From positions 3,348,001 through 3,412,000 of the forward strand of contig NZ_CP115396.1 of the NCBI RefSeq assembly GCF_027625995.1: 64,000 nt of DNA, written 5' to 3'. Each line of letters opens with the position of its first letter. The first letter of the stretch is position 1. Position numbers and translations under genes: made by a program. This document shows positions 29,071 through 44,778 of this stretch, in pieces. The notes beneath the pieces are model-generated. The model ran no database searches, had not been told where the DNA came from, and worked only from the letters and a program-made list of their open reading frames with translations. The DNA comes from Hymenobacter yonginensis. Lineage in GTDB: Bacteria; Bacteroidota; Bacteroidia; Cytophagales; Hymenobacteraceae.

Positions 29071-30167
29071 ATGCTTACCAAAACCTTCGGCTCGGCCGTG
29101 CAGGGAGTAAACGCTTATACCATTACCATTGAAGTAGTTGTATCGCAGGGCACCAATTTCTACGTGGTGGGTTTGCCCGATAATGCCATCAAGGAAAGCC
29201 AGCAGCGCATTGAGGCCGCCCTCAAGTTTCGGGGGCTGCGGATGCCGCGTACCAAAGTAGTCGTGAACATGGCTCCGGCCGATATCCGCAAGGAGGGCTC
29301 GGCCTACGACCTGCCCATTGCGCTGGGCATCCTGCACGCCTCGCAGCAGCTCAGCACCGAGCAACTGGGCGAGTACATCATAATGGGCGAAATGGCGCTG
29401 GACGGCGCCCTGCGGCCTATTCGGGGCGTTCTACCGATTGCCATTCAGGCCCGCAAGGAGGGCTTCAAAGGCTTCATCCTGCCCCGCGAGAATGCGCGGG
29501 AGGCCGCCATCGTCAACAACCTCGACATCATTCCGGTGGACACCATGCAGGAGGCCATCGACTTTTTCGAGGGCCGGCTGGCCATTGAGCCACTGGTGAT
29601 GGACACGCGTGATGCCTTCCAGCTCGATGCCAACCAGTACGCCGCCGATTTCGCCGACGTGCAGGGCCAGGAAAACATCAAGCGGGCCCTGGAAATAGCG
29701 GCGGCCGGCGGCCACAACGTCATCATGATCGGGCCGCCCGGCGCGGGCAAAACCATGCTAGCCAAGCGCCTGCCCACCATTTTGCCGCCGCTGGCCATTC
29801 AGGAAGCCCTCGAAACCACCAGGATTCATTCGGTGGCCGGCAAGCTGGGCGCCAATGCCTCGCTGCTGGGCACGCGCCCCTTCCGCGCCCCGCACCACAC
29901 CATCTCCGACGTGGCGCTGGTGGGTGGCGGCGGCAACCCGCAGCCGGGCGAAATCTCGCTGGCCCACAATGGCGTGCTGTTTCTGGATGAGCTGCCGGAG
30001 TTCAAGCGCACGGTGCTGGAAGTGATGCGCCAGCCGCTGGAAGAGCGCCGCGTGACCATCTCGCGGGCCAAGGTCAGCATCGACTTCCCGGCCAATTTCA
30101 TGCTGATTGCGAGCATGAACCCCTGCCCCTGCGGCTACTACAACCACCCCGAGAAAGAGTGCGTGTG
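29071..30167 (+). pseudogene. comM: ComM/YifB, N-terminal part, interrupted by the transposon
   Basis: The first 365 codons of a Mg-chelatase-like AAA+ ATPase. In proteobacteria, ComM is a DNA helicase aiding natural transformation. An N-terminal Lon-protease-like domain (about 1-170) is followed by Walker [18 protein letters not shown], Walker [11 protein letters not shown] and the [11 protein letters not shown] segment. The frame then meets the transposon end at 30168 and stops at 30189 after six foreign residues (KYKSR and stop). The truncated protein lacks the arginine-finger region and C-terminal domain and should be inactive. The 3' half is at 44774-45220. Confidence 0.93.
30163..30167 (+). 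repeat. target-site duplication, left copy (GTGTG)
   Basis: GTGTG directly precedes the transposon terminus TGTCAAATA. The identical five bases follow the right terminus at 44774-44778. Confidence 0.93.
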
Positions 30168-30234
30168 TGTCAAATATAAAAGTCGATGATAAACTATATT
30201 AGTCGGTGATAATTCCAAAATGTTATCACCGACT
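30168..30234. repeat. transposon left end: terminal inverted repeat and three TnsB-like sites
   Basis: The terminal repeat is 30168-30192. Three 12-bp motifs follow: AGTCGATGATAA at 30181-30192, AGTCGGTGATAA at 30201-30212 and, reversed, TTATCACCGACT at 30223-30234. The third may also serve the regulation of the adjacent gene. Confidence 0.85.
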
Positions 30235-30294
30235 ATTAGACATTCTTTAACCGACCTTCGTCAAACTATACAACTATACTTACCACACGTCGCG

Positions 30295-32058
30295 ATGGCA
30301 GCACCTATTACGATTAATTTACCCGACGGCGAATGGACGTGTCGGTGGGTCAACGATTTCTGCTACAGCAAAGACCGATTCGGCAATGGCATCAGCGTAA
30401 GCTGCGTAGTGAGCTACGTCAATGCGAGAGGTGATGTCAAAAACATCTTTTCTCCGCTCAACGTCCTGTACCGAACAGTAATTGGGAACAAATTACTCGT
30501 TAGGAATAAGACAGCACACGTAATAGTTAGTAATCCGGCACAACAACGCGTGCTCTATCAGACAGCGGTTACAGAGGAGTGTTTATCGCAAACTGCCTCT
30601 TGCTTCTTCAATCATCTGGGCCTAACCTACGAACAGCATAATCAAGCTCTCGTTAGCAGTTCACCGTTTCAGACGCTGATGCGGGAATTGCAGCTTCCTA
30701 CCGGGTTTGGGTACACCCCCGTTCACTGCCTGCCCGCTCCTGATGGCAGCAGTGTAATCCGGAATGTTATCATTCCCAGTTACGAAGTGCTACGCTACTT
30801 CTTCCTGCAAGGTAATACGTTACCTGACCTCCTTTTGTCATACTTTACCGGCCGAGCACAAAAAGGGAAGCGCATATGCCAAGGAATTCCCGAACTAGTC
30901 GCTCATCCGACCGGCGAGCCCCTCGTGGTGGTGCGCAACGGGGAGCGAGTTGCTTTTCTGCAAGTGAAAGAGGGGCTCAGTAAGGCAGAGGTTTCGTGTC
31001 TGGCCCGCATCGCTTTCATCCCCTGGGCCGCTGACTGCCTAGACAAGGTGCGCGAAGGCCTGTTGTTGAGCAGCGCCCGGCCCGACAACCTCCCCGATAG
31101 GTGGCACGCGTTCAAATCCCTGCGCACCATCCTTCCCCAGAGCCGGCCGTTTATGCTCGCTGCTTGTGGCCGAGAATTTTCCTGGCAAGGAAAGTCCTAC
31201 CTCCTGGTAGACCAGATATATGATACGCAGGAGAAGATGCCCTTCGACAAAATCAGCTACCTCCCTTTGGGTGACCATCGCAGCAAGTCGATCCCGCTCA
31301 ACCCGGCGGCGGCTCGGGAAAACCTGTCTCCCCGCACAAAGACGCAACCGGCCGCGTCGGCCCGGCTTACGGCGGACGAGTTAGGAAATACCAACCAGCC
31401 GACTAGCCTGATGGATTCGGTAGACACCGTTTCCGTATTCGGCGAGAAGCCCCCAGTGATCAAGCTGCCTAAAAGAGACCAAACTGGCCGTTATCATACA
31501 GTCGGCATCTCCCAAGAGGAAAGCGAACTGCTCTCCTTGTTGGAGCAAGGACTGAAAGATGCCGGACCCGGGCGCGTACGGGTAGAGGCCGGCATACCCG
31601 ACACGCATAGTCAGGTTAGAAATTTATTCACGGCCTTGCAGGTACTCCCTACCTACACGTGTGCGTACCTCAACCTAGACCAGGACCCACCGATTTTTCA
31701 GGAGCGCTATTATCTGAACCGTACCCGGCCCGGCCTCCCCCATGCCGTGATGCTCGGACGCCTGCAACCGCGCTCGGGCTCCACTCAGGCAACCGTCTAT
31801 GTGGTGTGGGCCAGCACCATCCGGTACGCCCTGTTTTACACCCCTACCCTGCAACCTCTCGACTCATCGGTGCTGAACCACCTGCATACGGAACTATTTG
31901 GCAAAGCAGGCCTGGATACAAACTTGATGCAGCAGCACCTGGAATTGTGGCATCGATTCAACCCGGCCGACCTACGTGTGGAAGGCTTGGTTAGTAAAAT
32001 AGAAGGCGACCTACGGGAAATCATCGACGGCAGAAAATCGCGAACAAGAGTGCGGTAG
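30295..32058 (+). CDS. transposon left-end protein, family unknown (possibly TnsE/TniE-like)
   Basis: A 587-residue soluble protein starting MAAPITINLPDGEWTCRWVN. The start at 30295 is preferred over 30220, which would overlap a TnsB-like site. I see no known catalytic motif. An N-terminal beta-rich half ends in SYLLVDQIYDTQEKMPFDK, a low-complexity linker spans about residues 340-395, and a C-terminal half contains YHTVGISQEESELLSLLEQG and ATVYVVWASTIRYALFYTP. Size, two-part layout and position as the only large protein outside the tns operon recall TnsE/TniE target selectors, but similarity is too weak to name it. It could instead be cargo. The next gene is 92 bp on, same strand. Confidence 0.6.
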   Translation: MAAPITINLPDGEWTCRWVNDFCYSKDRFGNGISVSCVVSYVNARGDVKNIFSPLNVLYRTVIGNKLLVRNKTAHVIVSNPAQQRVLYQTAVTEECLSQTASCFFNHLGLTYEQHNQALVSSSPFQTLMRELQLPTGFGYTPVHCLPAPDGSSVIRNVIIPSYEVLRYFFLQGNTLPDLLLSYFTGRAQKGKRICQGIPELVAHPTGEPLVVVRNGERVAFLQVKEGLSKAEVSCLARIAFIPWAADCLDKVREGLLLSSARPDNLPDRWHAFKSLRTILPQSRPFMLAACGREFSWQGKSYLLVDQIYDTQEKMPFDKISYLPLGDHRSKSIPLNPAAARENLSPRTKTQPAASARLTADELGNTNQPTSLMDSVDTVSVFGEKPPVIKLPKRDQTGRYHTVGISQEESELLSLLEQGLKDAGPGRVRVEAGIPDTHSQVRNLFTALQVLPTYTCAYLNLDQDPPIFQERYYLNRTRPGLPHAVMLGRLQPRSGSTQATVYVVWASTIRYALFYTPTLQPLDSSVLNHLHTELFGKAGLDTNLMQQHLELWHRFNPADLRVEGLVSKIEGDLREIIDGRKSRTRVR

Positions 32059-32150
32059 CGACTATTTTCTTGGCGTAATCCCCTGGGTAGAGTAAGGCCA
32101 ATAGCGTGCCCTGCTCCGCTTATCACCTTTCCTTATCCCTGTTCAATCCC

Positions 32151-32789
32151 ATGTCAACAACCCCTGTTACCCTATCCTGCGGCCACTGCAGCAATGTTTC
32201 CTTTATGCCTATCGTGGGAAATGTACAGGACTTCGAAGAGCGCGGCGATGCCACCCACGGCTACGATGAGCATGGCGAGGTGTACACGGTTCTGAAGTGT
32301 CCGGCCTGCTTTAAAATAAACATTGCCTCCTACTACTGGAGTGAAAGCATGGAGCCCGATGAGGTCGTCCGTTACGAGCAGCTCTACCCACAGGAGAAGA
32401 ACATTCCCATTGGCCTGCCGGACAATATTTTACGGGCGTTAAAAGCTGCCGAAAAAGTTAAAACTATTGACGCTCACGTCTACGCTTTTTCCCTCGGCCG
32501 AACATTGGAATTGGTGTGTATGGACAGAAATGCGCAGGGAAACACCTTGGCTGAGATGTTGAAGGACCTAGCCGACAAACACGAGATTCCTGAAAAGCTA
32601 GTTGATGTCGCCAAAGGCCTTCGCCAACTCAGAAATGTCGGTGCCCACGCCGGATTAGGCAATTTGAGTGAAAGCGATTTGCCCATTGCCCAGGCGCTCT
32701 GTTACGCGCTGCTGGAATACATTTACAGCGCGCCACACCTTGCTGCCCAAGCGGAAATAGCGCTCGCTAAAATCCGGGCCAGCCACTAG
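32151..32789 (+). CDS. DUF4145 domain protein with N-terminal zinc ribbon
   Basis: A 212-residue protein. Two CxxC pairs (CGHC at residue 10, CPAC near residue 43) form a zinc ribbon. The rest fits the DUF4145 fold: LPDNILRALKAAEKVKT, FSLGRTLELVCMDRNA, then AKGLRQLRNVGAHAGLGN, whose RN...AH pattern recalls HEPN-like helices. DUF4145 domains are frequent in phage-defence and restriction loci, often as accessory proteins. It starts a rightward run that continues 56 bp later with the two ParB-like genes and the methylase. Confidence 0.75.
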   Translation: MSTTPVTLSCGHCSNVSFMPIVGNVQDFEERGDATHGYDEHGEVYTVLKCPACFKINIASYYWSESMEPDEVVRYEQLYPQEKNIPIGLPDNILRALKAAEKVKTIDAHVYAFSLGRTLELVCMDRNAQGNTLAEMLKDLADKHEIPEKLVDVAKGLRQLRNVGAHAGLGNLSESDLPIAQALCYALLEYIYSAPHLAAQAEIALAKIRASH

Positions 32790-32845
32790 CTGGTTACCCC
32801 ACCTCCCTGTTTTTCATTTCCTATTTACTCTGTAAACAACGCACA

Positions 32846-34612
32846 ATGGCTCGCATCGATTATGCCTCCTGGGAAGAGCGCAAATTTGTTACCGCTCGTC
32901 TACGACTGGACGCGCAAAACTTACGTCTCCGTAGCAACCCCGTCGTACTCTCTCCCCGCAACATTATCCAGTATATGTTCGACTATGAGAAAGTACTGTA
33001 TTTAGCCCGGGCGATTGCGTTGAAAGGCTACTTTGTCAACGAGATGCCGATTGTGGTGCAAGAAGGCGGAAACTACGTCGTGATTGAGGGCAATCGTCGC
33101 ATAACCGCCTGTAAAGTACTGCTGGACCCGAAGCTCGCACCGGATAAGTACCAAGAACACATCCAGTATCTGGCAAGTACTTTCAACACGGAATCTTTGC
33201 GAAAGATGAAGTGCGTTATTGCCCCCTCCCGCGATGACGCGCGGGTCATTATTCAGAACCGGCACACCGGCGGCAGCCAGATAGAGAAGTGGGACGGGAT
33301 GAAGCAGGACATGTGGTACATCAACGATATTACCCGGGGCTCCACCGTCGATGAGATCGCGAAAATCTATCTGCAGAGCAAAGGAAAAGTGCTCAGCTCC
33401 ATCCTTCGCTACAAGCTCTATGCGGAAGCCAAACAGGTTGCTGGGTTATCCGATAGTGCGTACCGCTTTGTGCATAGCGATGAGCGGTTTCCTATTTCTA
33501 CGCTATGGCGCTTTCTTTCGAGCAAGCAAGGCATCGAGTTTTTAGGCCTTGAGTACACCGCCGCTGGAGATATTGAAATTTTATTGCCTCCCGAGGAATA
33601 CAACAAGCGGTTTGCGGCCATTTTGGAGGATTTGGCCAAAGGCAGCAAAGAGGAACGGGCAAAGGCCGGCAAGGGCAACAAAGAAGGCATCAACTCCCGG
33701 GAACTCAATACTGAAGCCGATATCGTCCGGTACGTCTCCGGCTTGGCGGAAGGCGGCCGCTTTGATCCGTCCATCGTACCCCGACCAGCCGATAAGGATG
33801 CCATTGATGTCGGCAAGCTGTCGGAAGATAACTCGGAAGAGTCCTTGGACGAAACCACTGACTTTCGATTTGAGGACGACAGCGAGGAAGAAGACGCGGC
33901 CGCCAGCGCGGTGCCTGATGCCCAACCGGCAGCAGGTGATGATGTGCCACCACCCGCCACCACCAAGCCCAAAAAGGCCCGGAAGGCCACTTCCCCTCCA
34001 CCCGCTACTTCCTCACCGGCTCCGCTCATTAGCGAGGCATTCTCTTGTCAAACCACCGTTCCTAAGATAGACGAGATTTTTGGAGAGCTAAAGACCATTG
34101 CCCTCGATAAACCGAATGCGATTGCCGTCCTGTTCCGCACCCTGATGGAACTGCTGCTAACCAAGTATGTGGAGGAAAACCAGCTAGACGAGGCGCTGCG
34201 CACGAGCCAAATACAGGAATACGTTACGAGCAACCGGAAGATTGAAGAAAACCTGATCAGATACCTCAAGACCCGTCACGGTATTGATGAAACGCCAGAA
34301 GACATCAAGCGCATTCTAAAGTTGAGAGAAGAGCTTCCCGAACGTTGGAAACCGTCTCTGGGATTTATGTTGAAGTACTTCAATGACCACGCAACGGAAC
34401 TTATCGCTCACCCCAGCATCCGCGAAGCCTTTCAAGGCTATGTCCGGCAGCAGAACACGGTCACCCAGAGTGAATTTAATCTATTTGTTCATAACCCGTT
34501 CTTCATCGCCAACCCTACCGTCCTACAGGAATTTTGGAGCAATTTTGCTCCTTTTATCACCTTCCTTATCAAAGGAATAACCGAAAAGCAAGACCCAACG
34601 GACGCAGCATAA
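32846..34612 (+). CDS. ParB/Srx-fold protein A (588 aa)
   Basis: Residues ~40-130 show a ParB/sulfiredoxin-type domain with the key box NYVVIEGNRRITACKVLL (EGNRR at 81-85). A conserved-looking RHTGGSQIEKWDGMKQDMW (139-157) and a helix-turn-helix-like stretch (GSTVDEIAKIYLQSKGKV) follow. An acidic, then Pro/Lys-rich linker (about 330-395) leads to a helical C-terminal domain starting KIDEIFGELKTIALDK and AIAVLFRTLMELLLTKYVEE. The next gene has the same plan. ParB-like folds include CTP-dependent clamps and nucleases; no nuclease residues can be confirmed. It lies 29 bp before its partner. Confidence 0.75.
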   Translation: MARIDYASWEERKFVTARLRLDAQNLRLRSNPVVLSPRNIIQYMFDYEKVLYLARAIALKGYFVNEMPIVVQEGGNYVVIEGNRRITACKVLLDPKLAPDKYQEHIQYLASTFNTESLRKMKCVIAPSRDDARVIIQNRHTGGSQIEKWDGMKQDMWYINDITRGSTVDEIAKIYLQSKGKVLSSILRYKLYAEAKQVAGLSDSAYRFVHSDERFPISTLWRFLSSKQGIEFLGLEYTAAGDIEILLPPEEYNKRFAAILEDLAKGSKEERAKAGKGNKEGINSRELNTEADIVRYVSGLAEGGRFDPSIVPRPADKDAIDVGKLSEDNSEESLDETTDFRFEDDSEEEDAAASAVPDAQPAAGDDVPPPATTKPKKARKATSPPPATSSPAPLISEAFSCQTTVPKIDEIFGELKTIALDKPNAIAVLFRTLMELLLTKYVEENQLDEALRTSQIQEYVTSNRKIEENLIRYLKTRHGIDETPEDIKRILKLREELPERWKPSLGFMLKYFNDHATELIAHPSIREAFQGYVRQQNTVTQSEFNLFVHNPFFIANPTVLQEFWSNFAPFITFLIKGITEKQDPTDAA

Positions 34613-34641
34613 TAATCCTGATTTAACGTTTAGCTGAATCT

Positions 34642-36024
34642 ATGCCACGTTTACATGCCCAAAGAGTTACGATCCCCATCCACAAAATCGGGGTGGACGA
34701 GCGCAACCCACGGCTCCCACCCCAGCAAAGCCAGCGCGAAGCCATCCGGGCAATGATCGAGCAGCAGGGCGAGAAAATTGTGCACTTGGCGGCCGACATC
34801 ACCGAACACGGCCTGAGCGAGGCTGAACGCTTTATGGCCATCGTACCCGACAATCAACGTTTCCCTTATGTCTCGCTGGATGGTAACCGTCGGCTAGTAG
34901 CACTCAAGCTGCTGCAAGAGCCTACTCTCGCTGACGGTGTACTCTCTGGCCGGTGGTTTTCGCGCCTGCTAAAAATAGCCGAACTCTTTGCGAAGGATCC
35001 CATTAAGGAAGTGGAGTTAGCTGTATTCGATAGCCGCGAGCACGGTGCGCTGTGGGTGGCACGGCGGCACTCGGTCAATCTCAACGGCATCGGCCAAGAT
35101 CCCTGGGACGCCATGGAAAAGCATCGGTTCGATGCCTGGCGCGGGGTCGCCTCGCGCGAGTGGCAGGTTCTGCAGTTTGTGCACGAGCATGGTAACCTCT
35201 CGCCGGCCGACGTAAAGCGCCTGCCCAAAGTGCCTATGAGCACCCTGTTGCGCCTGATCGGCGACAGCTACGTGAAAGAGCAACTCGGCTTGGAATACCG
35301 CAACAACCTAGTCGTAACGAACCTTCCCAACGAGGAAGTTATCAAGCCCCTGCGGCGCATCATTCTGGACTTACTCGACCGAAAGGAGGACGTAACGACC
35401 CTCGATAGCAAGGCGGACCGAAAGCGCTACATCGACAACCTAGCTTTGACCGAGAAGCCCAGCTCTACTGCCTCTCTCACCCACTTTCACCGTCTGGGCC
35501 AGAAAGAACGTTTCGTAGCTCCCCCCGCAATAGCTTCCAAGGCCTGCCCTGAGCCGCTCCCAGTTGCGCCCAAATCCGCGTTCCGCAAACTTATCAATGA
35601 GCGAACCACCATTGCCCCCAGCTCGTGCCAACTCGCTATCGGTCAGCCGCGCATTCAGGATATCTACCAGGAATTGCAACAATTGGATATTACCGCGCAC
35701 GCTACGGCTGGAGCGGTGCTGTTGCGCTTGTTTGTAGAGCTAAGCCTAGACCATTTTTTGGCGCGGCTGACCGAGCGAATAGAGGCAACAACTTCGGTGG
35801 CCGAAAAGCTGGAGGCTGCTGCTAAATATTTTAGCGCTAATGGTTCGCTCGGTGAAGACGAGTGCGTATATATGCGCAAAATTTCGGATAGGAATTCTGT
35901 ACTTTTGCCTAACGTAGACTCTCTTTCCGTCTATGTGCATACCCAAGTTGCGGCGCCCTTGCCCGCCGATCTACGGCAGCAATGGGATGCACTGCAGCCT
36001 ATTTTACGCCTTATTTGGTCCTGA
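34642..36024 (+). CDS. ParB/Srx-fold protein B (460 aa)
   Basis: A partner of the preceding gene with the same order of parts. The N-terminus RVTIPIHKIGVDERNPRLPP is ParB-like. The box FPYVSLDGNRRLVALKLLQE (DGNRR at 80-84) follows, then RRHSVNLNGIGQDPWDAMEK (141-160), which parallels the RH..G....W block of protein A. The C-terminal domain (about 335-460) starts RIQDIYQELQQLDITAHATA with LLRLFVELSLDHFLARL, matching protein A's C-terminal domain in pattern. It has no acidic linker. It ends 5 bp before the methylase ATG, so the two are surely co-transcribed. Confidence 0.75.
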   Translation: MPRLHAQRVTIPIHKIGVDERNPRLPPQQSQREAIRAMIEQQGEKIVHLAADITEHGLSEAERFMAIVPDNQRFPYVSLDGNRRLVALKLLQEPTLADGVLSGRWFSRLLKIAELFAKDPIKEVELAVFDSREHGALWVARRHSVNLNGIGQDPWDAMEKHRFDAWRGVASREWQVLQFVHEHGNLSPADVKRLPKVPMSTLLRLIGDSYVKEQLGLEYRNNLVVTNLPNEEVIKPLRRIILDLLDRKEDVTTLDSKADRKRYIDNLALTEKPSSTASLTHFHRLGQKERFVAPPAIASKACPEPLPVAPKSAFRKLINERTTIAPSSCQLAIGQPRIQDIYQELQQLDITAHATAGAVLLRLFVELSLDHFLARLTERIEATTSVAEKLEAAAKYFSANGSLGEDECVYMRKISDRNSVLLPNVDSLSVYVHTQVAAPLPADLRQQWDALQPILRLIWS

Positions 36025-36029
36025 ACGAC

Positions 36030-37097
36030 ATGCCTGTCCAACCATTCCCGTCGCCCCTCCGCTACCCCGGCGGTAAGCTCAAGGTAGCGAACTACGTAAA
36101 GCTGCTGTTTGTGCTAAACGACCTGATGGACGGACACTACGCCGAACCCTACGCCGGGGGCTGTAGTGTCGCGCTTTCCCTGCTGTTTGGACAATACGCC
36201 TCCAAAATTTTCATAAATGATATAGACAAAGATATATATGACTTTTGGTTTACAGTGCTTAATGACCCTGATGGACTGTCCAAAAAGATTCGCGATGCCA
36301 AGCTCGACATGGACGAGTGGAACTCACAGCGCCGGTTTCTAGACAATAAAAAGGACGAGCATAGCCAATTAGAAAGAGCATTCGCTGCCTTTTATCTCAA
36401 CCGCACTAATCGCTCCGGCATTATCAGAGGCGGGGTTATTGGGGGTAAGAATCAGACTGGGAAGTGGAAAATAGATGCTCGATTTAATAAGGACAATCTG
36501 ATCCAGCGAATTGAAAAAATAGCAAGGCAAAGGGACCAAATTGAGATTTCAAATCTCGATGCCCGCATTTTCCTTCGAGACGTTGTCCCTACTATGGACA
36601 AGCGCAGTCTAACATACTTGGACCCACCTTATTATGACAAGGGCCAAGGCCTTTACACCAATGCCTATGATCATGATGGGCACGCTGATGTTGCTGACGA
36701 TGTTGCGAAATTGAAGTCACCCTGGTTGGTGTCATATGATAATATAGAGAAGATCAAGGAACTATATACAGGTCATACTTCTATAGAGTACAACCTGTAT
36801 CACAGTGCTGCAAACCATGTAGCGAAGGAAGAAAAGGATACTGAAGCAGATGCTACGCCAAGTGTCGAGTCAGAAGCGATTTTTAAGGAACCCATCGCTG
36901 AAGAAACAGCAGTCGGCGAGGACTCCCCGACTGAGCATGTTCCTAAACCTCGCCGTAAAGGCAAAGAAATCATGTTTTTCTCTCCTGGATTGATTTTACC
37001 TGAAGGAATTACAGACCCTTCCGCCATTTCTGTCAAGAAACTGCACGCGCTATCAAAGGAATGTAAAGAGATGCGACAACTGTCTTTGATGTTTTAA
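36030..37097 (+). CDS. Dam-type (D12 class) DNA adenine N6-methyltransferase
   Basis: A 355-residue methylase. SPLRYPGGKLKVANYVKLLF is the D12-class motif I region, EPYAGGCSVALSLLFG and FINDIDKDIYDFWFTVL follow, and the catalytic DPPY lies at residues 198-201 (SLTYLDPPYYDKG). The order gives the alpha (Dam-like) class that methylates adenine N6. An acidic insert of about 55 residues rich in Glu/Ala/Thr interrupts the end of the domain between HSAANHVAK and KGKEIMFFSPG, where normal members run straight on. The start (MPVQPFPSPLRYPGG) lies 5 bp after ParB B. Its GC content is lower than the host average. Confidence 0.88.
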   Translation: MPVQPFPSPLRYPGGKLKVANYVKLLFVLNDLMDGHYAEPYAGGCSVALSLLFGQYASKIFINDIDKDIYDFWFTVLNDPDGLSKKIRDAKLDMDEWNSQRRFLDNKKDEHSQLERAFAAFYLNRTNRSGIIRGGVIGGKNQTGKWKIDARFNKDNLIQRIEKIARQRDQIEISNLDARIFLRDVVPTMDKRSLTYLDPPYYDKGQGLYTNAYDHDGHADVADDVAKLKSPWLVSYDNIEKIKELYTGHTSIEYNLYHSAANHVAKEEKDTEADATPSVESEAIFKEPIAEETAVGEDSPTEHVPKPRRKGKEIMFFSPGLILPEGITDPSAISVKKLHALSKECKEMRQLSLMF

Positions 37098-37184
37098 GGT
37101 AAAGTAAGCTGTTTGGCTAAGGCAACACAATTCCAGCCGTTTTCAGCAGGTGCTTGTTACCACCAGCTACTGTTCTGTTTATAA

Positions 37185-37219
37185 GCAAAAAGCCTGCACA
37201 TCATGTGCAGGCTTTTTGC
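37185..37219. terminator. bidirectional terminator after the methylase gene
   Basis: A perfect 16-bp stem (37185-37200 with 37204-37219) with a 3-base loop and A/T runs on both sides. It stands between the rightward methylase operon and the leftward small-peptide frame, so it can serve both. Confidence 0.9.
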
Positions 37220-37291
37220 GTGTATTACATGCGATACGGATCACCGTATGCGGCTTATGGGATGTAGCTCTTAAACTAGATCCCCAATGGT

Positions 37292-37414
37292 CTAGTGGAG
37301 AGTTGAGCGAAGGGAGCCGATACGGCCTTGCTTAGCACCCAAGCGGCCCTGTCGAGAGCCGATACGCCCTTGCTTGACATTCCCAAAACGGATGTTCCAT
37401 GCTTGATTTTTCAT
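37292..37414 (-). CDS. 40-residue Gly/Arg/Lys repeat peptide
   Basis: A 40-codon frame starting MKNQAWNIRFGNVKQGRIGS and ending RIGSLRSTLH, with three 7-residue repeats of the type (K/R)QGR(I/L)G(S/A). It lies 64 bp beyond the membrane-protein stop on the same strand and ends 73 bp before the shared terminator. Two 24-bp near-identical direct repeats at DNA level (37314-37337 and 37356-37379) make up the repeats. No clear ribosome site is visible. It could be a small basic peptide, a toxin or a chance frame over repeats. Confidence 0.35.
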   Translation of the reverse strand: MKNQAWNIRFGNVKQGRIGSRQGRLGAKQGRIGSLRSTLH

Positions 37415-37478
37415 GTCAAAACCTGTTAATGAGTGGTTTGGAAACATAAATATAAGGCTTCATGGCTTAACTGTTGAT

Positions 37479-38495
37479 CTAAGCCGTTATCTTTTTCAAC
37501 GTAAAAACAAACCCTTGGTTGGGCAAAATACCTCCTTGTGCTCTATAGCTTCTCCTGTTTTCTTGTAGAAGAGGGTCTGGTACTAGCTCGGAAGCAAGGG
37601 ATGAAAATACATGAAAGTCATAGCCAGCAGGAAAGTTTGCTTCCAAGGTTGCATTGACAACTGGGTAACGGGTGAAGAAGCTGTCGTTTATCGGCAGGAC
37701 ATTATAAGCAGTTTCGTAAACCTGACTTATCTGAACAGTACCACCTCGCAGTATCGGAAAGCTTATAAGCACTTCAGAGCCGCCAGAACCGGACTCGGTA
37801 ACAACCACCTTTCCATCGCATGCCGTCTTCTGCCTGGGATTATCAGGGTCTGCTACTAGTTCATCATATTTAAAAGATAGAACCGGCTTGTCATCTTGCC
37901 TGCAAATAAATTCTTTTAAAAAGGCTACACCACTTGCGTCATCGCACACTGCGATAATTTGCTCAGTGCGATCAGCACCCGTACCATTATAAAGATGATA
38001 GCGATCGGTCTGGCGCAAGGATATATTTCCGTTAGGCAATTCCACAAAATCATAAGTCCACCTTATATCTTTTCTTACCATTCCATTCTTGATAATATCC
38101 CGCTTAATTATCTCAAATATCTCTTCATCTACCAGCGTGCGGAACACGGATGAGAATACGTTCTCTCTTATCTCCGCATTTATTGCATCCAATTGAGCAG
38201 CTCTCTTGGCAGCCAATGAATCCTCAATACCTTTTATAAAAAAAAGCGAAACGATCAGGGAAAAGCATAGTGTCAAACAAGCATCTCCAGTTAAATTAAA
38301 CAGCGTACGTCCATAGGGTGTCACAAAGTCTATACTATCTTTTGATACGCCATTGATGATAATGCGCTTTTCCACTACGAACGACTCATAGGCGAGCGAT
38401 GCATATACTTTCATGGCAACCCCTAAGAAGAATAGGACTACAACAATCCCTATCTCCTTACTACCATATCCTCTTTCTTCTAAAAATCTTGGCAT
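37479..38495 (-). CDS. hypothetical two-helix membrane protein (cargo)
   Basis: A 338-residue protein with two hydrophobic helices, EIGIVVVLFFLGVAMKVYAS near residue 14 and CLTLCFSLIVSLFFIKGI near residue 73, separated by a ~35-residue segment. A ~240-residue soluble domain follows, containing VFSSVFRTLVDEEIFEIIKR and VTESGSGGSEVLISFPILRG. I recognise no family. Codon and base use are clearly AT-richer than the host genes. With the XRE gene upstream, the layout resembles a repressor-controlled membrane effector, which is inference. Confidence 0.7.
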   Translation of the reverse strand: MPRFLEERGYGSKEIGIVVVLFFLGVAMKVYASLAYESFVVEKRIIINGVSKDSIDFVTPYGRTLFNLTGDACLTLCFSLIVSLFFIKGIEDSLAAKRAAQLDAINAEIRENVFSSVFRTLVDEEIFEIIKRDIIKNGMVRKDIRWTYDFVELPNGNISLRQTDRYHLYNGTGADRTEQIIAVCDDASGVAFLKEFICRQDDKPVLSFKYDELVADPDNPRQKTACDGKVVVTESGSGGSEVLISFPILRGGTVQISQVYETAYNVLPINDSFFTRYPVVNATLEANFPAGYDFHVFSSLASELVPDPLLQENRRSYRAQGGILPNQGFVFTLKKITA

Positions 38496-38824
38496 CTTCT
38501 ATGCTGGCACTTCTTAACTTGAGGAAAAAAGTGATAAAACAAATACTCTATTGATTAATAAATTATTTGTTTTTCACCTGTATTTAAGCAAACTCTTCTC
38601 TTTTATGATGCATACTCATTTATTGGAGATACAACAAGAACATAGTTTATCTAATTCAGTATAGGTCAATTTATTGAAGAAATACTTAATTTTCTAATGT
38701 AAACAATCACAATATATCAGCCATATGATTTACCATGCATGAATCAGTTTACTACTGACAATTTTCAAATAACCCCTAATGATAGTTTCATCCTCGATTA
38801 TTGTATTTGTAATCCTTATAATCT
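38496..38824. other. AT-rich noncoding stretch between XRE and membrane-protein genes
   Basis: About 330 bp of very AT-rich sequence with no credible gene or hairpin. It presumably holds the leftward promoter of the membrane protein and the XRE operator. The composition contrasts with the flanking transposition genes. Confidence 0.5.
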
Positions 38825-39070
38825 TTAGGTCAACTTATTGGTGTTTAAGTAGTCTTCAACGTGTCGAAGCAAGTCAGAAGGTTGTAGACTCATCGCCGCG
38901 GCTAAACGAAAAATGGTGGTAAGCGAGGGTTGTTTACTCCCCGTCTCCAGTTGGGAGATATACGTGCGGTCCAACTTTGCCTCATCGGCTAGTACCTCTT
39001 GGGACATACCCCGCGCTTTGCGCAGCTGCTTGATGCTCAGCCCAAATGCCGTTATTGGTTCGCCGCCCAT
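38825..39070 (-). CDS. XRE-family helix-turn-helix regulator
   Basis: An 81-residue Cro/C1-type protein: IKQLRKARGMSQEVLADEAK, LDRTYISQLETGSKQPSLTT and IFRLAAAMSLQPSDLLRHVE. The helix-turn-helix spans about residues 24-45. Such small regulators control restriction-modification or toxin genes. It lies 330 bp upstream of the membrane-protein gene on the same strand and is divergent from the ribbon-helix-helix-like gene. Confidence 0.88.
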   Translation of the reverse strand: MGGEPITAFGLSIKQLRKARGMSQEVLADEAKLDRTYISQLETGSKQPSLTTIFRLAAAMSLQPSDLLRHVEDYLNTNKLT

Positions 39071-39141
39071 ATGAGCGGCAAGCTATCGGCCGTCGATAGT
39101 CACCTGTTGTTGTCAGTAGTCTACAAAAAAAGAGATAAATT

Positions 39142-39540
39142 GTGCTTCCTCACCGACAGAGGCGACTACACTATTTCCTTCTACTGTCACCCGTGTACAA
39201 CGACGTACCTCTTCTCACGCACTTCATCACCAAAGTGCTAAGCCCCGACAAAGGCCAGCAACTTTTTGAAGTAGAAATCATCGTTCGCCGGGCTACGGCA
39301 TCAGAACCCGTCATCGACGCGCAAAGCCCGCGTGCATTGGAAACTGGCCGTAGGGCCTCTGCCTACGTCTATTCCTTCTCCACCAACCTGAGCGAGGATA
39401 ACAAGCGGGGCCTCGACAATCTGACGTATTGGGCCGCAGGCCCGAGAAAGTCGAAAACCTACATTATTAACCAAGCGTTGGCCCAGTATCTTAGCCAATA
39501 CAAGGAAGCCCAGCAGCCGGTCCCCTCAGATGAAGGCTAA
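39142..39540 (+). CDS. small protein with ribbon-helix-helix-like C-terminus
   Basis: Up to 132 residues. The C-terminal ~50 residues, SFSTNLSEDNKRGLDNLTYW followed by SKTYIINQALAQYL, match the strand-helix-helix pattern of CopG/RHH DNA-binding proteins. The N-terminal part is unrecognised. The true start may be the ATG at 39142 or a GTG at 39193. It is divergent from the XRE gene and may be a second regulator. Confidence 0.55.
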   Translation: MLPHRQRRLHYFLLLSPVYNDVPLLTHFITKVLSPDKGQQLFEVEIIVRRATASEPVIDAQSPRALETGRRASAYVYSFSTNLSEDNKRGLDNLTYWAAGPRKSKTYIINQALAQYLSQYKEAQQPVPSDEG

Positions 39541-39554
39541 GAAACAAAGCTGCA

Positions 39555-39740
39555 TTAGCGGACTTTTTTCACTAGGCGCTTCTTCTGGGCGGCGGGTAAA
39601 GCTATCTCCTCCATCCGAGTATCATTCTGCTTTTTGCTCTGCGCAATGAACAGGGATATTTCCCGCAGTTCCTTCTTGGTCGGCGGCTTGGATTGAATCA
39701 GCCCGGCGTTCTCGGGTTCGTCGTCACGAAGAGTGTTCAT
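39555..39740 (-). CDS. small basic hypothetical protein (61 aa)
   Basis: A 61-residue hydrophilic protein, MNTLRDDEPENAGLIQSKPP at the start and basic at the end (AAQKKRLVKKVR). It lies between tniQ and the convergent RHH-like gene. No family is recognised; it may be a transposon accessory gene or a spurious frame. Confidence 0.4.
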   Translation of the reverse strand: MNTLRDDEPENAGLIQSKPPTKKELREISLFIAQSKKQNDTRMEEIALPAAQKKRLVKKVR

Positions 39741-39811
39741 GCACAGAAGGAGAAAGAGAAAGTGTCATTACAGTACGTTGAAACCAGCGCTCTGGTGGCC
39801 TCAGTTACACT

Positions 39812-40870
39812 TTAGTGTTCGAATTGACTCCAGCTTCTATTCCTGGCCGAGAAGAAATGTTCAACCAGGACGCTACTGAACCAGAAGGGCATTTCCTCGG
39901 CCATATCCCTGCGTATCGTATAGCTCTTTATTTGATTGTCGTGCATGACGCGGATGAACCGTGCGGGCCAATCTTCCAGCAGCCACATGGCCTGCTCCAG
40001 TAAGTAGATACGTCTTGCAATAGGCAGTTGCTCGAAGGCTCCTCCACCCGAGGGCCATGTCACTGGTTGGCCCATCCGAAGTCGTACGTCAACCTGCAGC
40101 CGCAAGGCCTCCCCGAACGGGCAGGATAGTACCCTGACTATTTGACGCAGTACCCGGAAATACTGGTGCGGATAGGGCACGGCTTCCTTCCATCCTTCCC
40201 GACTGACGCGGTATAATGTGTAATACCGGCTCAGCTCTTGGGCAGGAACCGGTTGCATGGGAGCCTGGCTCAGATCAAAGGCACACTTATAGCAAGTGGA
40301 GAGGAGCTGTTCAGCGGCGTTCTGGTGCCCCATGTCGAGGCGGAAGAAATTTACGGGGGCACCACAAGCGGGGCATTCCTCTCGTAGATAGACGCCGCAT
40401 GTAGGGCACACCACGTAAAACGCCAGTCGCCAACTGGTTCGGTAGTAGGGGTTGGCTCCATCCCGCTGCAGGCACCCGGGACAGTACACCAGTCCGTTTC
40501 CCTGGCGTGTACGGTGTACAATACCCACGGGCATCAACCAACTGGTGGGTCCTCGCTTAACATGGAGCAACTGGGTTCCGGTCAGGCGCTCGACAGCGGG
40601 GGCTAGCATCGTCTGGGCAATGCGATGAGGGTCCGTTAGGGTGCGGACCACCAGAGTGTTCAGCATGTGGGGCGGGGCGAGCTTATCAATGTCCCGCTTC
40701 CACACCACGATCTGCGGCCAGAGGTAGTGGGAAAACAACTGCACTTTCACCCGATGGGCCTGTGCCAGCCGCACTAACCAGCTCGACAGCAACTCGTCCT
40801 CGCTCGGATGAAACGTGCAGGGCAGAATGCGCCGCTCCAATAGGGCGTCCGGTGAGAGTATAGGTGTCAT
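39812..40870 (-). CDS. tniQ: TniQ-family target-selection protein
   Basis: A 352-residue TniQ/TnsD-related protein. The N-terminal phrase HPSEDELLSSWLVRLAQAHR is typical. Four CxxC pairs follow at residues 130-133 (CPGC), 155-158 (CPTC), 166-169 (CPAC) and 193-196 (CYKC), enough for two zinc fingers. TniQ/TnsD proteins bind the attachment site and recruit TnsC. As the only one in the element, it is the likely recogniser of comM. Its ATG overlaps the tnsC stop (ATGA), so translation is coupled. At 352 residues it is shorter than Tn7 TnsD. Confidence 0.9.
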   Translation of the reverse strand: MTPILSPDALLERRILPCTFHPSEDELLSSWLVRLAQAHRVKVQLFSHYLWPQIVVWKRDIDKLAPPHMLNTLVVRTLTDPHRIAQTMLAPAVERLTGTQLLHVKRGPTSWLMPVGIVHRTRQGNGLVYCPGCLQRDGANPYYRTSWRLAFYVVCPTCGVYLREECPACGAPVNFFRLDMGHQNAAEQLLSTCYKCAFDLSQAPMQPVPAQELSRYYTLYRVSREGWKEAVPYPHQYFRVLRQIVRVLSCPFGEALRLQVDVRLRMGQPVTWPSGGGAFEQLPIARRIYLLEQAMWLLEDWPARFIRVMHDNQIKSYTIRRDMAEEMPFWFSSVLVEHFFSARNRSWSQFEH

Positions 40871-41757
40871 CAGGCCGAAACGCCTTGAAAGCGGCGGCGT
40901 TCCGAGGGAAGCACGTAATCAATCTGGTCCAGTAGCTTCAGATCAATGCGCTCCTTGCCCGCGCGGATGGCTGTCACGGCAGCCGTAGTAATGACGGCGG
41001 AAATCTCGCCTATCGTCCCCTCGCTCATGGCGTAGATGCGTTCGGCTAACGCCGGCTCAGTCAGGCGCGACGCCTCGCGCAGGGGCAGCAGCCGCTCGAA
41101 GCTGGCCAGCAGGCGCAAATACTCCTCGGTATAGTGCCACCGAGGCAGGAATTTCTGCACAAAGCGGTTCGCCATCTGCGGGTCCGCACTCATGGCGTTG
41201 CGCGCTTCCATCGTACCCGCCGCCACAATGACGATTTGCAGCTCATTAGCCATCCCCTTCAGCACGTTCAGAAAGACCCGCTGGCTGGTGCTGCTGCCCG
41301 CCAACAGGTTTTGAATCTCGTCAATGATGAGCATCCGGGTATCCAGGTGCTGCAGAACGTGAAAGACCTGCCGCTCCATGCGGTCCAGCCGGTCCGCCTG
41401 CCGGTAGGGCGCGTTGAGCTGGTCCAGAAGCTTACGATAGAACTGCTTCTCGTCAGGCTTGGGCGGGGCTTCCACCGTAACGACCGGGCGAACCAGCTTT
41501 TCGTCGCCGAGCGTAGCGTACGGCTTGTGCAACTGACAAAATTTTTTGAGCAACAAGGTCTTGCCATTGTTCGTCTCCCCCACCAAGAGCAAGTTGGGCA
41601 TCCGGGCAATCTTGGGATGGGCCAGGAGTTCCTCCAGTCGCTCTAGGATACGCTCTGCGGCCGGGTACTTTATCCAGCGATTCGACTGGATAAATTGGAT
41701 GCGGGTGGGAGTATCACTCAGCGCAACGGGATGCAGCGCCTCAATCAAATGCTTCAT
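40870..41757 (-). CDS. tnsC: TnsC/TniB AAA+ transposition regulator
   Basis: A 295-residue AAA+ ATPase. Walker A is GETNNGKT (residues 60-67) and Walker B is RMLIIDEIQNLL (Asp 146, Glu 147), with sensor-like VIVAAGTMEARNAM after it. TnsC links target-site proteins to the TnsA/TnsB transposase and enforces target immunity. It is shorter than Tn7 TnsC (555 residues) and closer to TniB in size. Its start overlaps the tnsB end by 17 bp. Confidence 0.92.
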   Translation of the reverse strand: MKHLIEALHPVALSDTPTRIQFIQSNRWIKYPAAERILERLEELLAHPKIARMPNLLLVGETNNGKTLLLKKFCQLHKPYATLGDEKLVRPVVTVEAPPKPDEKQFYRKLLDQLNAPYRQADRLDRMERQVFHVLQHLDTRMLIIDEIQNLLAGSSTSQRVFLNVLKGMANELQIVIVAAGTMEARNAMSADPQMANRFVQKFLPRWHYTEEYLRLLASFERLLPLREASRLTEPALAERIYAMSEGTIGEISAVITTAAVTAIRAGKERIDLKLLDQIDYVLPSERRRFQGVSA

Positions 41758-43648
41758 ATTCTAGTTCGTCGAAGGGTTGAATAGGTCCCGTAACCAGCGG
41801 TAATGAGCGGGCCAGCTCATTAGGGGTAGAACCGTCCGGGGTCAGCTTGGCCGAGACCATTTCCTGCCGGATGCTTTTAGCGCGGCTGCTTTCCGTCTTA
41901 GCCTGCCGGCGCTGACGACGCACGCGCCGGGTCTGACTCACGGCCTGCGCTTCGATTTCCCGCAGCTTCTCATACGCACTGAAGAGCGCTTCCTCGTCTA
42001 CTGCCGTTACCCCTTCACTCTCCAACTGTCGCAGCACCTGCTTGTGCTCCCACAGAGTCATAGGTGGGCGCAGCAGGTCGCGGTACGGAATCTCGAAGTA
42101 GCCCTTCGCCTCGGGGTCGTAGAAAAACAGAACGCTGATGTCGCGCGGGTCCCGCTTGAAGATGAACTTGCGCTTGCGCTTATTCTTTGGGGAATCTCCT
42201 TCCAGCGCGTGGACCCAGGGGCGGAGCACGTCGCTATAGTAGTGGATATAATCCAGCACGACCCCGTACTCCTGAACGGTGCGCTCGAAGTAGGGCAGAA
42301 AGTCGAGCTTGACCCGTAGCTCGTCCTGGAAGCGAGGCGGCAGGCCGGTCTTTTCGTAGATGCCGTCCTCGAACACCTCCAGCGGTGTTCGGCCTAACGC
42401 AGTGTGCACGCGTTTGTGGTAGATATTCACGATCAGGTGCAGCAGCCACCGTTCAAATTCGCCCAGCGTAAGGGCTGCCTTGTCGGCGGATGGGTACTCG
42501 CCCCGCTGCTGTGGGTTAGAAAACGTCGTGCCCGGCAATTCATGAATTTCATTGGCAAACGTGCCCAGCAGCCGCTCAATATGGCCGCCGTAGTTGGGCT
42601 TGCGTACGGGCCGCCACTCCAGGTCAATGCCGTACTCCTCACAGGCGCGCTTGAGCATGTTGCCCCGAAACTCCTTGCCGTTGTCGGCGTAAATCTTTCG
42701 CATCTTACCCCAGCAGGGCCACTCGCCTAGCACGTCCAGCCGATGCAGCCAGGCTTCCTTGGGCAGCAGGCTGTTGGCGACACACATGCCGACGCCCAGC
42801 GCACCCGGTGTCTCAAAAGATATGTAGAGGCCGACCACCAAGCGGCTGTAGACGTCGATAGCCATTGTAATCCAGGGCTTGCCCAGCGGTGTGCGCGTTT
42901 TGTCGTCCACCAGGATGACGTCGCCCGGCGTGTGGTCGATTTGTACGACCGCCAAGGGAAAGTCAGCTCCTGGGTATTTTCCTTCGTGTGGACGAAACTG
43001 GTCGTCGGCTGCCTTATGCCCGTGCCGGAAGCGAAGTGCCTTCTCCTGACGAATGGCCAATACCCTGTTGCGCACGGTACCCACGTGCGGCGGGGTCAAC
43101 CCGTGCCGCCGGCAGCGGGCGGTCACATCGTGATATACTCGCTTGAGCGGAAAGCGCTGCTTGGTTTGGTGTACCTCCTCCACGGAGGCGCGCACCAGTG
43201 CTTCCACCTCAGCAGAGAGCCGGGTTTTGCCTTCGCCCCCACTGGAACGGCTCGGAATCAACTGGGAAACCTGCCCGGTGGCCTCGAACTGATTCATCCA
43301 CCGGTAGAGCGTTGCCGGACCGATCCGATGCCGGCGCGCCGCTTCCTGCACCAGTTGCCCATCGCCCCGGCGGGCTAAGAGCGGCTGAATGATGGCCAGC
43401 CGCTTCTGGGCCTCGGCCCATTGCTCGTCTGAGACCAGTTCTAAGGGAATAGCTGGCACCGTTGCGGCTTCGGCCGCCGGGGACGGCGGTCGCAGGTGCG
43501 CGATAGGCGCGCGGAGCAAGCGTCCCGAAATCGCGTCTTCCAGCACCACCGTTTTTAGGTTGCCCGTTAACTGGCGAATCTGGTACGACTTCCCGTGGTA
43601 CGTGACCTCGCTGCCGAGTTGCAAGGAGAATTCCGTTACGACATCCAT
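41741..43648 (-). CDS. tnsB: TnsB/TniA DDE transposase
   Basis: A 635-residue transposase of the retroviral-integrase superfamily (Mu/TniA group). Helix-turn-helix regions lie in the first 200 residues. The catalytic triad is Asp 238 (VVQIDHTP), Asp 322 (KIYADNGKEFRG) and Glu 358 (GGHIERLLGTF), with 35 residues between the last two, the classic D,D(35)E. It binds the terminal repeats and joins the 3' ends to target DNA. It overlaps tnsA by 13 bp. The C-terminal ~170 residues are basic (KNKRKRKFIFKRD, RRVRRQRRQAK) and probably contact TnsC. Confidence 0.95.
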   Translation of the reverse strand: MDVVTEFSLQLGSEVTYHGKSYQIRQLTGNLKTVVLEDAISGRLLRAPIAHLRPPSPAAEAATVPAIPLELVSDEQWAEAQKRLAIIQPLLARRGDGQLVQEAARRHRIGPATLYRWMNQFEATGQVSQLIPSRSSGGEGKTRLSAEVEALVRASVEEVHQTKQRFPLKRVYHDVTARCRRHGLTPPHVGTVRNRVLAIRQEKALRFRHGHKAADDQFRPHEGKYPGADFPLAVVQIDHTPGDVILVDDKTRTPLGKPWITMAIDVYSRLVVGLYISFETPGALGVGMCVANSLLPKEAWLHRLDVLGEWPCWGKMRKIYADNGKEFRGNMLKRACEEYGIDLEWRPVRKPNYGGHIERLLGTFANEIHELPGTTFSNPQQRGEYPSADKAALTLGEFERWLLHLIVNIYHKRVHTALGRTPLEVFEDGIYEKTGLPPRFQDELRVKLDFLPYFERTVQEYGVVLDYIHYYSDVLRPWVHALEGDSPKNKRKRKFIFKRDPRDISVLFFYDPEAKGYFEIPYRDLLRPPMTLWEHKQVLRQLESEGVTAVDEEALFSAYEKLREIEAQAVSQTRRVRRQRRQAKTESSRAKSIRQEMVSAKLTPDGSTPNELARSLPLVTGPIQPFDELEYEAFD

Positions 43649-44313
43649 AGTTCGGTTTGTAAGGACAGTTCAACGGTCAAATCACAATGAATCAGGCGCA
43701 CGGCCACCAAATGCCAGAGCGTGTACAGCAGTTCGGCTCGCTTCGTCCGGTCGGCGGTGGCCATCAGCAATAATTCCTCCGCCGTCGTCAGTTGAATGTC
43801 CTGCATGAGACGCATCAACAAACCTTGGTCCGTCTGCCTGATCTGTACCTCGGGGCCAGTGTATTGCCGCAGGAAGCGCACGTTGGCGAGGTACTCGGTG
43901 CGGATTTCGCGCTCCGTAATCAGCTTAAACCGCCAGCCTTGCCGGTCGGCATAACGCAGGGCAGCCATAAACCGGGGCTTCAGGGCAGCCCAGTTCTGCC
44001 GCAACTCGTCGCGGTACTTTACCTCATACAGCGTGGGCCGGATCGCGCTGGACACGGCCAAATCCTCGCGGTAATACACTAGCACGTCGGGCGTGTAGTG
44101 TCGCACCACCCCCTCGTGCATGTACTCGATAGTAACTGGCTGCTCGCAAAAGAAGTCAACACCGTGGTCGAAGTCCAGCAGTAGCAGTAGGTCGCGTTCC
44201 AGCGCAGATTCATACTGGGGTGAGCGGCCGACTTTGGGGCTGCTCAACTGACCGCGAATGGAGCGGGATGACGGAAGAATAGCGCGAACCGGGTTAAAGC
44301 GTGTAGTAGACAT
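43636..44313 (-). CDS. tnsA: TnsA heteromeric transposase endonuclease
   Basis: A 225-residue restriction-like endonuclease that cuts the 5' transposon ends in Tn7-type elements. The nuclease residues line up as Glu 39 (YESALERDLLLLL), Asp 76 (RHYTPDVLVYY) and Lys 99 in YEVKYRDEL, the E-D-ExK pattern. Its presence means simple cut-and-paste insertion rather than cointegrates. It is the first gene of the leftward operon, starting 460 bp from the right end. Confidence 0.92.
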   Translation of the reverse strand: MSTTRFNPVRAILPSSRSIRGQLSSPKVGRSPQYESALERDLLLLLDFDHGVDFFCEQPVTIEYMHEGVVRHYTPDVLVYYREDLAVSSAIRPTLYEVKYRDELRQNWAALKPRFMAALRYADRQGWRFKLITEREIRTEYLANVRFLRQYTGPEVQIRQTDQGLLMRLMQDIQLTTAEELLLMATADRTKRAELLYTLWHLVAVRLIHCDLTVELSLQTELWMS

Positions 44314-44773
44314 CAGGGATGGTGGTCAGGAAATAAGAGATCAGCATGTATGAAATCGGCTGATGAACGACATACTTAGTGATGCAGCTACTTTCGCCAC
44401 CTCTCTATCCAGCATAGGGAGGACGGGTTTAGTTGAAATTCCACAGCTGCTCGATTTGACTTGGTGAAAAATTTAATAAAACCCTCAATCATATGGAAGC
44501 TACTGTATTAGGCTCAATAATTGCTAAGCGCTGCCCCAAAAAAGTGAAAGCAACGATTCCAGTGCACATGTTGCGATAAAGCGTGAGCTTACTGATAGCA
44601 CCGACAAAGAATGGGGGCAGGCAAGAGCTTGCCGGGCTATTTTGTAAACTGTAATCATCGACTACAGGTAGTTTCCAATCTAGTATCATCAACTCTTGTA
44701 AAATTCTCATCGACTTTTAGTGCGAAAGTGCCTAAACTATAGTCTCGATTATCATCGTCTTCTGTATTTGACA
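44314..44773. repeat. transposon right end: noncoding leader, four TnsB-like sites, terminal repeat
   Basis: 460 bp upstream of tnsA with no credible gene. Four 12-bp motifs close to TTATCATCGACT lie at 44652-44663, 44683-44694, 44704-44715 and 44749-44760, the last inside the terminal repeat 44749-44773. Four right-end sites against three left-end sites is the arrangement of Tn7. Confidence 0.85.
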
Positions 44774-44778
44774 GTGTG
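44774..44778 (+). repeat. target-site duplication, right copy (GTGTG)
   Basis: Identical to 30163-30167 and directly follows the terminal TTTGACA. Confidence 0.93.

Follow-up and report, generated by a model that had tools for sequence, protein, structure and literature searches.

PD-Lambda-5 is an anti-phage system that was found and phage-tested in E. coli (Vassallo et al. 2022, PMC9519451), and the protection against phages described in that article concerns the E. coli system only. In passages on PD-Lambda-5 from six articles (PMC9519451, PMC10799925, PMC12629846, PMC12824646, PMC10482375, PMC13216270; preprints and supplementary files lie outside this scope), which comprise the discovery, surveys and remarks, a mechanism is not given and an arrangement of two A genes with one B gene is not described. 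Two other kinds of described systems bear on what follows, namely, transposons of the Tn6022 type, which are Tn7-like and target comM (PMC10293859), and fusions of ParB with HEPN domains, of which Saro_3948 is an example on record (Anantharaman 2013, PMC3710099). Here we report on a 64,000-nucleotide window of the Hymenobacter yonginensis genome (contig NZ_CP115396.1, positions 3,348,001 to 3,412,000, forward strand; coordinates below are those of the window) in which two genes of the PD-Lambda-5_A type, A1 and A2, precede one methylase gene, B. The reading that we favour, and hold to be probable without being secure, is that 32846-37097 is PD-Lambda-5 in a two-A form that is a working unit and is carried as cargo by a Tn7-like element in comM. 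What is new here is the two-A arrangement, in which one A is from a distant lineage.

The A1, A2 and B genes

When the proteins were compared with the PADLOC models, A2 matched PD-Lambda-5_A at 6.3e-113 across residues 8-459 and A1 matched the same model at 8.7e-54, with residues 17-457 as its best stretch. B matched PD-Lambda-5_B at 2e-111 over residues 22-284 of a frame that opens 16 residues before the likely start, and it also matched a type II methylase model (3.4e-95). A2 is directly 5' of B on the same strand with a 5-bp gap, which is the gene order of PD-Lambda-5. Judged by these matches, A1, A2 and B very probably belong to PD-Lambda-5. In Pfam, the only domains above cut-off in these three proteins and in the product of the DUF4145 gene that lies upstream of A1 were DUF4145 (1.4e-13) and MethyltransfD12 (6.3e-24). 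Since the match of B to the NCBIfam Dam model, 66.9 bits, falls below the cut-off of 114.85, it does not establish a GATC specificity of B. The DPPY motif is present in B, as is a low-complexity addition close to its C terminus, and A1 has a long acidic and proline-rich linker.

None of the curated ParB models of Pfam and NCBIfam was above cut-off for A1 or A2, and the Pfam ParB models matched neither these two proteins nor 45 members of the family at E 0.01. The A proteins are assigned to ParB because A1 matches ParB families of PHROG (best 3.8e-6), the family profile matches the solved ParB 4umk weakly (E 0.0028), and the GNRR motif is invariant, all four columns being the same in 92 of the 92 distinct A proteins surveyed, each of at least 400 amino acids and at least 150 bits. 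ParB-fold proteins bind cytidine, adenosine or guanosine triphosphate through a conserved arginine of the P-motif, as described in PMC12704722. A C-terminal histidine (433 in A2) is kept in 89 of the same 92 proteins. The exceptions are the A2 proteins of genomes G804, which has proline, and G794, which has glutamine and also lacks the conserved Arg 362, together with locus L087, probably a misalignment in which a YAH at the end of the protein escaped the alignment. In genome G808 the A fragment that adjoins B also lacks this histidine, the fragment being cut by the contig end. A1 of the window keeps 14 of the 14 conserved positions examined.

A sequence-only reading of this DNA had proposed the DUF4145 gene, the two ParB-like genes and a Dam methylase gene as a candidate undescribed anti-phage system in Tn7-like cargo. 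Its four rightward genes are all present, its gaps of 29 bp between A1 and A2 and 5 bp between A2 and B are correct, that between the DUF4145 gene and A1 being 56 bp, and the shared terminator that it saw corresponds to a hairpin 87 bp past the last stop (-27.4 kcal/mol, z -7.49, equalled in 0 of 200 shuffles). A methylase with ParB-like proteins as anti-phage cargo fits the evidence. The novelty of the set has to be given up, three of the four genes having matched a described system in PADLOC, and an accessory role of the DUF4145 protein is not supported, as set out below. The hairpin was not listed by a simple terminator scan, which gave seven terminators against 6.4 in shuffles and thus no excess; we think that the scan missed it since the stem takes up the run of T. 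The promoter scan gave five against 4.9 in shuffles. The features are collected in Table 1, in which the starts at 32151 and 36030 were chosen, the mechanical frames beginning at 32106 and 35982.

Table 1. Features of the locus and of its carrier in the window
Feature	Position	Strand	Basis and remarks
Tn7-like element, 14,606 bp	30168-44773		inverted TGTCAAATA ends; GTGTG duplicated (5 bp) at 30163-30167 and 44774-44778
DUF4145 protein, 212 aa	32151-32789	+	Pfam 1.4e-13; same-direction neighbour, apparently not conserved as a part of the system
A1, PD-Lambda-5_A type ParB-like protein, 588 aa, distant A lineage	32846-34612	+	PADLOC 8.7e-54; trees
A2, PD-Lambda-5_A type ParB-like protein, 460 aa, genus-specific A2 clade	34642-36024	+	PADLOC 6.3e-113; tree
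B, PD-Lambda-5_B, Dam-type (D12 class) adenine DNA methylase	36030-37097	+	PADLOC 2e-111; Pfam 6.3e-24; alignment of 6
Terminator-like hairpin 3' of the methylase gene	37185-37219	+	fold z -7.49; absent from the consensus scan list
TniQ, TnsC (TniB), TnsB and TnsA genes	39812-44313	-	Pfam matches

Occurrence and ancestry of the two-A layout

Genome contigs were scanned with the methylase alignment, and from 556 relatives the 80 best loci were retained. Among loci L001-L090, from which L004 and L022 were dropped as repeats, there were 56 adjacent same-strand A-B pairs, and in 19 of these a gene in the same direction lies at most 160 bp upstream of A. Of 139 distinct B genes (>250 bits) in the loci fetched, 97 have a single A at most 300 bp away, one has two and 41 have none, a tally that includes contig ends and in which the share with A is biased upward since some of the loci were fetched through A searches. 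Genes for A that are split in two pieces (L044, L054, L184, G377, G464) were not taken as tandems. Thus, by this tally of our own and not by a published definition, one A per B is the common layout, and the window deviates from it with two. Viral contigs, which were scanned with A1 alone, gave no relative.

The A-family profile matched nine of 204 genomes of the window's family. Full-length A proteins are present in G767 (Hymenobacter properus, L011), G794, G804 and G864, the A of G808 is cut by the contig end, and the other four match in the N-terminal part only. The A1-A2-B layout was found in two of the 204, G794 and G804, both in the genus of H. properus. The genes of G794 are 26 and 12 bp apart, and those of G804 have, with the start chosen, a 1-base overlap followed by a gap of 10 bp. 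Elsewhere the only same-strand pair of A genes before a B was in L065, where both are low-scoring (31 and 60 bits). In the order sample a full-length A was found in one of 291 genomes (G131), as two identical copies 39 kb apart, and of the 395 genomes in the phylum sample 23 matched, their table of places showing no same-strand tandem pair. The layout is rare and is found mainly in the genus of H. properus. It is not tied to the Tn7-like transposon, since the tandems of G794 and G804 are near genes which we take to resemble those of tyrosine integrases. Immediately upstream of the G804 tandem are genes for one protein with a RES domain and one DUF6932 protein (L231:7605-10014).

An earlier tree had left out A proteins shorter than 400 amino acids and the repeats L004 and L022. 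Of its long branches, L007, L063, L080, the second copy of L083 and L087 were left out of a tree of 42 chosen A rows and L073 was kept; in the latter tree L073, L110 and L183 are long. In the 42-row tree, A2 of the window and the second copies from G794 and G804 make up one clade (support 100/99), which is nested in a six-row genus clade (100/100) with the first copies of these two genomes and H. properus. A1 of the window is far outside the genus clade, near A proteins of G653 (L110), G531 (L108), Pseudohongiella, a planctomycete and Sphaerochaeta. Its group has a modest support of 90/74 (92/72 for the pair with L110), but 100/98 for a four-row version in the earlier tree. Five relatives of A1, in L077, L055, L073, L108 and L110, have their own B beside them. 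Local duplication as the source of A1 was rejected by both A trees and by the approximately unbiased (AU) test, in which forcing A1 together with the first copies of G794 and G804 was 192 log units worse (p-AU 1.03e-13); gene position decided which copies counted as first, but this was after the earlier tree had shown the separation of A1 from A2, so that the test was not fully blind. In the methylase tree, B of the window groups with those of G808, G804, G794 and H. properus (100/96). These trees therefore suggest that A2 and B are native to the genus and that A1 was acquired from elsewhere; it may either have displaced an earlier first copy or have joined a single A2-B pair.

Proposed function and competing explanations

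The favoured reading, a two-A PD-Lambda-5 that is a working unit, draws on features that are read from the DNA: family membership, gene order, close spacing, the recurrence of the layout in two further genomes of the genus and the origin of A1 in a distant lineage. B would methylate adenine in host DNA and thus mark it as self. The A proteins, switched by nucleotide at the GNRR site, would detect unmarked DNA or a disturbance of B and would respond by damaging nucleic acid or halting the cell, the C-terminal domain delivering or controlling the damage, so that the overall logic would be that of a compact restriction and abortive-infection system. The deletion of mrr in the context of Vassallo et al. 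(2022) hints, in our own estimation, that methylation of host DNA is real. A2 would likely be the one that is coupled to B, with A1 as an effector that can be exchanged or as a second specificity, and having two A proteins could broaden the set of triggers or assign sensing and action to different proteins. More tentatively, the roles may be split in a heteromer in which A2, after duplication, became coupled to B as its guard or scaffold and is prone to losing the active residue of its C terminus, the effector being A1, which can be swapped for a distant homologue; if this is true, it is a modular sensor-effector version of PD-Lambda-5. Natural loci with two A genes for one methylase, one A being of distant lineage and, in the relatives, one being without the nearly invariant histidine, offer a genetic handle on the sensing part, the acting part and the target that the methylase protects.

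Several points weigh against this account. The division of labour rests on only two full-length A2 proteins without the histidine, those of G794 and G804, and A2 of the window keeps it. The C-terminal domain of A resembles HEPN weakly: the HEPN motif Rx4-6H is present in three of 45 A rows, the C-terminal histidine being in all 45, an hhalign comparison of the domain with a 7-row DUF4145 set gave a probability of 24% (E 8e-4), and the table of one review (PMC10952713) enters HEPN for other PD systems and none for PD-Lambda-5. In H. properus, A-B is single and intact, and A1 of the window may stand beside a complete A2-B pair by chance.

This last point leads to the alternative that survives best, namely, that the locus arose by accretion, A2-B being complete and A1 a remnant of another PD-Lambda-5 that has lost its methylase, with no joint function. 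We regard it as possible, if doubtful. A1 is of a different lineage, of which five members have their own B, and the single A-B is the common form and that of H. properus; against this, two further genomes of the genus share the A-A-B order with short spacing, and the gene for A1 is open, all the conserved residues examined being intact. It is unlikely that the locus is a plain restriction-modification (RM) system in which the A proteins are nucleases cutting unmethylated sites, two of them serving two sites or forming a heterodimer. In most loci with the methylase A does lie next to it, and ParB/Srx proteins with nuclease activity are on record (PMC10853773, PMC12839542), but profile scans matched no nuclease family in A1, A2 or 45 members of the family. 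Moreover, according to the text of PMC9519451, PD-Lambda-5 hits T-even phages harder than lambda-vir, and T4 and T7 are termed resistant to most RM systems.

That the DUF4145 protein is a working part of a four-gene system is very improbable. In its favour are the shared direction, the 56-bp gap and the nature of DUF4145 as a HEPN family that is also found in operons with RM genes (PMC3710099). However, no relative of the protein was found in the first 90 loci at E 0.01, and a home-made DUF4145 profile, which recovers six of eight supplied DUF4145 loci (missing L137 and L139) and may thus overlook some, matched only L013 among the A-B loci, where a 365-amino-acid protein upstream has a marginal match of 24.1 bits against the Pfam cut-off of 23.1. 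The stretches fetched around the tandems of G794 and G804 had no relative either, and in G820 a 58% identical homologue has no A or B within the 18 kb fetched. Among 50 genomes with PD-Lambda-5 loci (50 of the best 80 loci), 11 have DUF4145, with 13 matches, of which eight were fetched and are on contigs that differ in length from those with A-B, one is that of L013 and four were judged by the home-made profile. One plasmid and one phage relative have no PD-Lambda-5 gene annotated within 4-5 kb, and PADLOC gave no match for the protein. The four families were thus not found as a conserved neighbourhood in the A-B loci, around the two tandems or in G820, and the DUF4145 gene, which the sequence-only reading had cast as an accessory, looks like a mere neighbour and not a conserved partner. 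Housekeeping partition by ParB, which that reading had named as the plain alternative, can be dismissed with near certainty in spite of the weak ParB profile matches, PD-Lambda-5_A being by far the best match, no curated ParB model matching and no ParA-like Pfam match being found among the ten element proteins scanned.

The carrier element, neighbouring variants and described systems

The gene that is split by the element is presumably comM, a name that we take from its sequence and not from a family search; its parts are on both sides of the element, and the joined flanks give a 512-residue open frame. TnsA, TnsB, TnsC, TniQ, paired ends and a 5-bp duplication are all present, as in a Tn7-like element. 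Genome G250 has a related element beside the comM 5' part, with a TnsB that is 78% identical; the 33.5 kb that were fetched gave no A or B match, and the 2.2 kb past its TnsA gave no 3' part of comM. Since this element has another gene in the place of the cargo and no A or B, PD-Lambda-5 is read as cargo. At the element end, a 612-amino-acid gene (30220-32058) has no convincing family match in Pfam, PADLOC, NCBIfam or PHROG and a marginal likeness (20% identity, E 0.007) to a 607-amino-acid gene in a like place in G250; it is possibly a target selector or a gene specific to the element. The sequence GTCGrTGATAA occurs there at 30182-30192, 30202-30212 and 30223-30233, two direct and one inverted, and these are perhaps transposase binding sites; the start codon of the 612-amino-acid gene is between the second and the third. 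A leftward gene at 37479-38495 has weak matches only (PADLOC REase_II 0.0072, PHROG 0.17) and apparently two membrane segments near its start.

Variants were met in other loci. In 17 loci with no A found beside the methylase (L034, L040, L057, L075, L079, L086, L089, L150, L151, L155, L156, L158, L160, L168, L175, L178, L182), a relative, 469-590 amino acids long, of one AAA ATPase is at most 94 bp away; those of L034 and L150 match AAA_15 and AAA_21. The ATPase with a PD-Lambda-5_B-like methylase is possibly a sister system. Such an ATPase is also at most 77 bp from a complete A-B pair in L016, L029, L031, L067, L070, L080 and L166. A second, shorter ParB-like protein (about 370-400 amino acids) is near the A-B pair at L059:8873-9991, L064:9880-11001 and L083:6545-7756 and near B at L126:1486-2616; in that of L059 the match to the PD-Lambda-5_A profile is confined to the first 200 residues.

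Compared with the ParB-HEPN fusions such as Saro_3948, as described in PMC3710099, the A proteins likewise have a ParB-type N-terminal domain and a C-terminal domain with a conserved histidine, but Rx4-6H is mostly lacking in the A family, and the likeness to Saro_3948 is a lead. The carrier resembles the Tn6022-type transposons, as presented in PMC10293859, in being a Tn7-type element inside comM, and may differ in its element-end gene at 30220-32058, which has no family match. With the tandems of G794 and G804 the window shares the three-gene layout and the clades of A2 and B, whereas their A1 is close to their A2, which is without the C-terminal histidine, and A1 of the window is from a distant lineage and its A2 has that histidine. 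With PD-Lambda-5 as it appears in the text of Vassallo et al. (2022, PMC9519451) the locus has in common both component families, A before B, the short spacing and the setting in a mobile element; it differs in having two A genes of different lineages for a single B, in its Tn7-like carrier and in the linker insertions of A1 and B.

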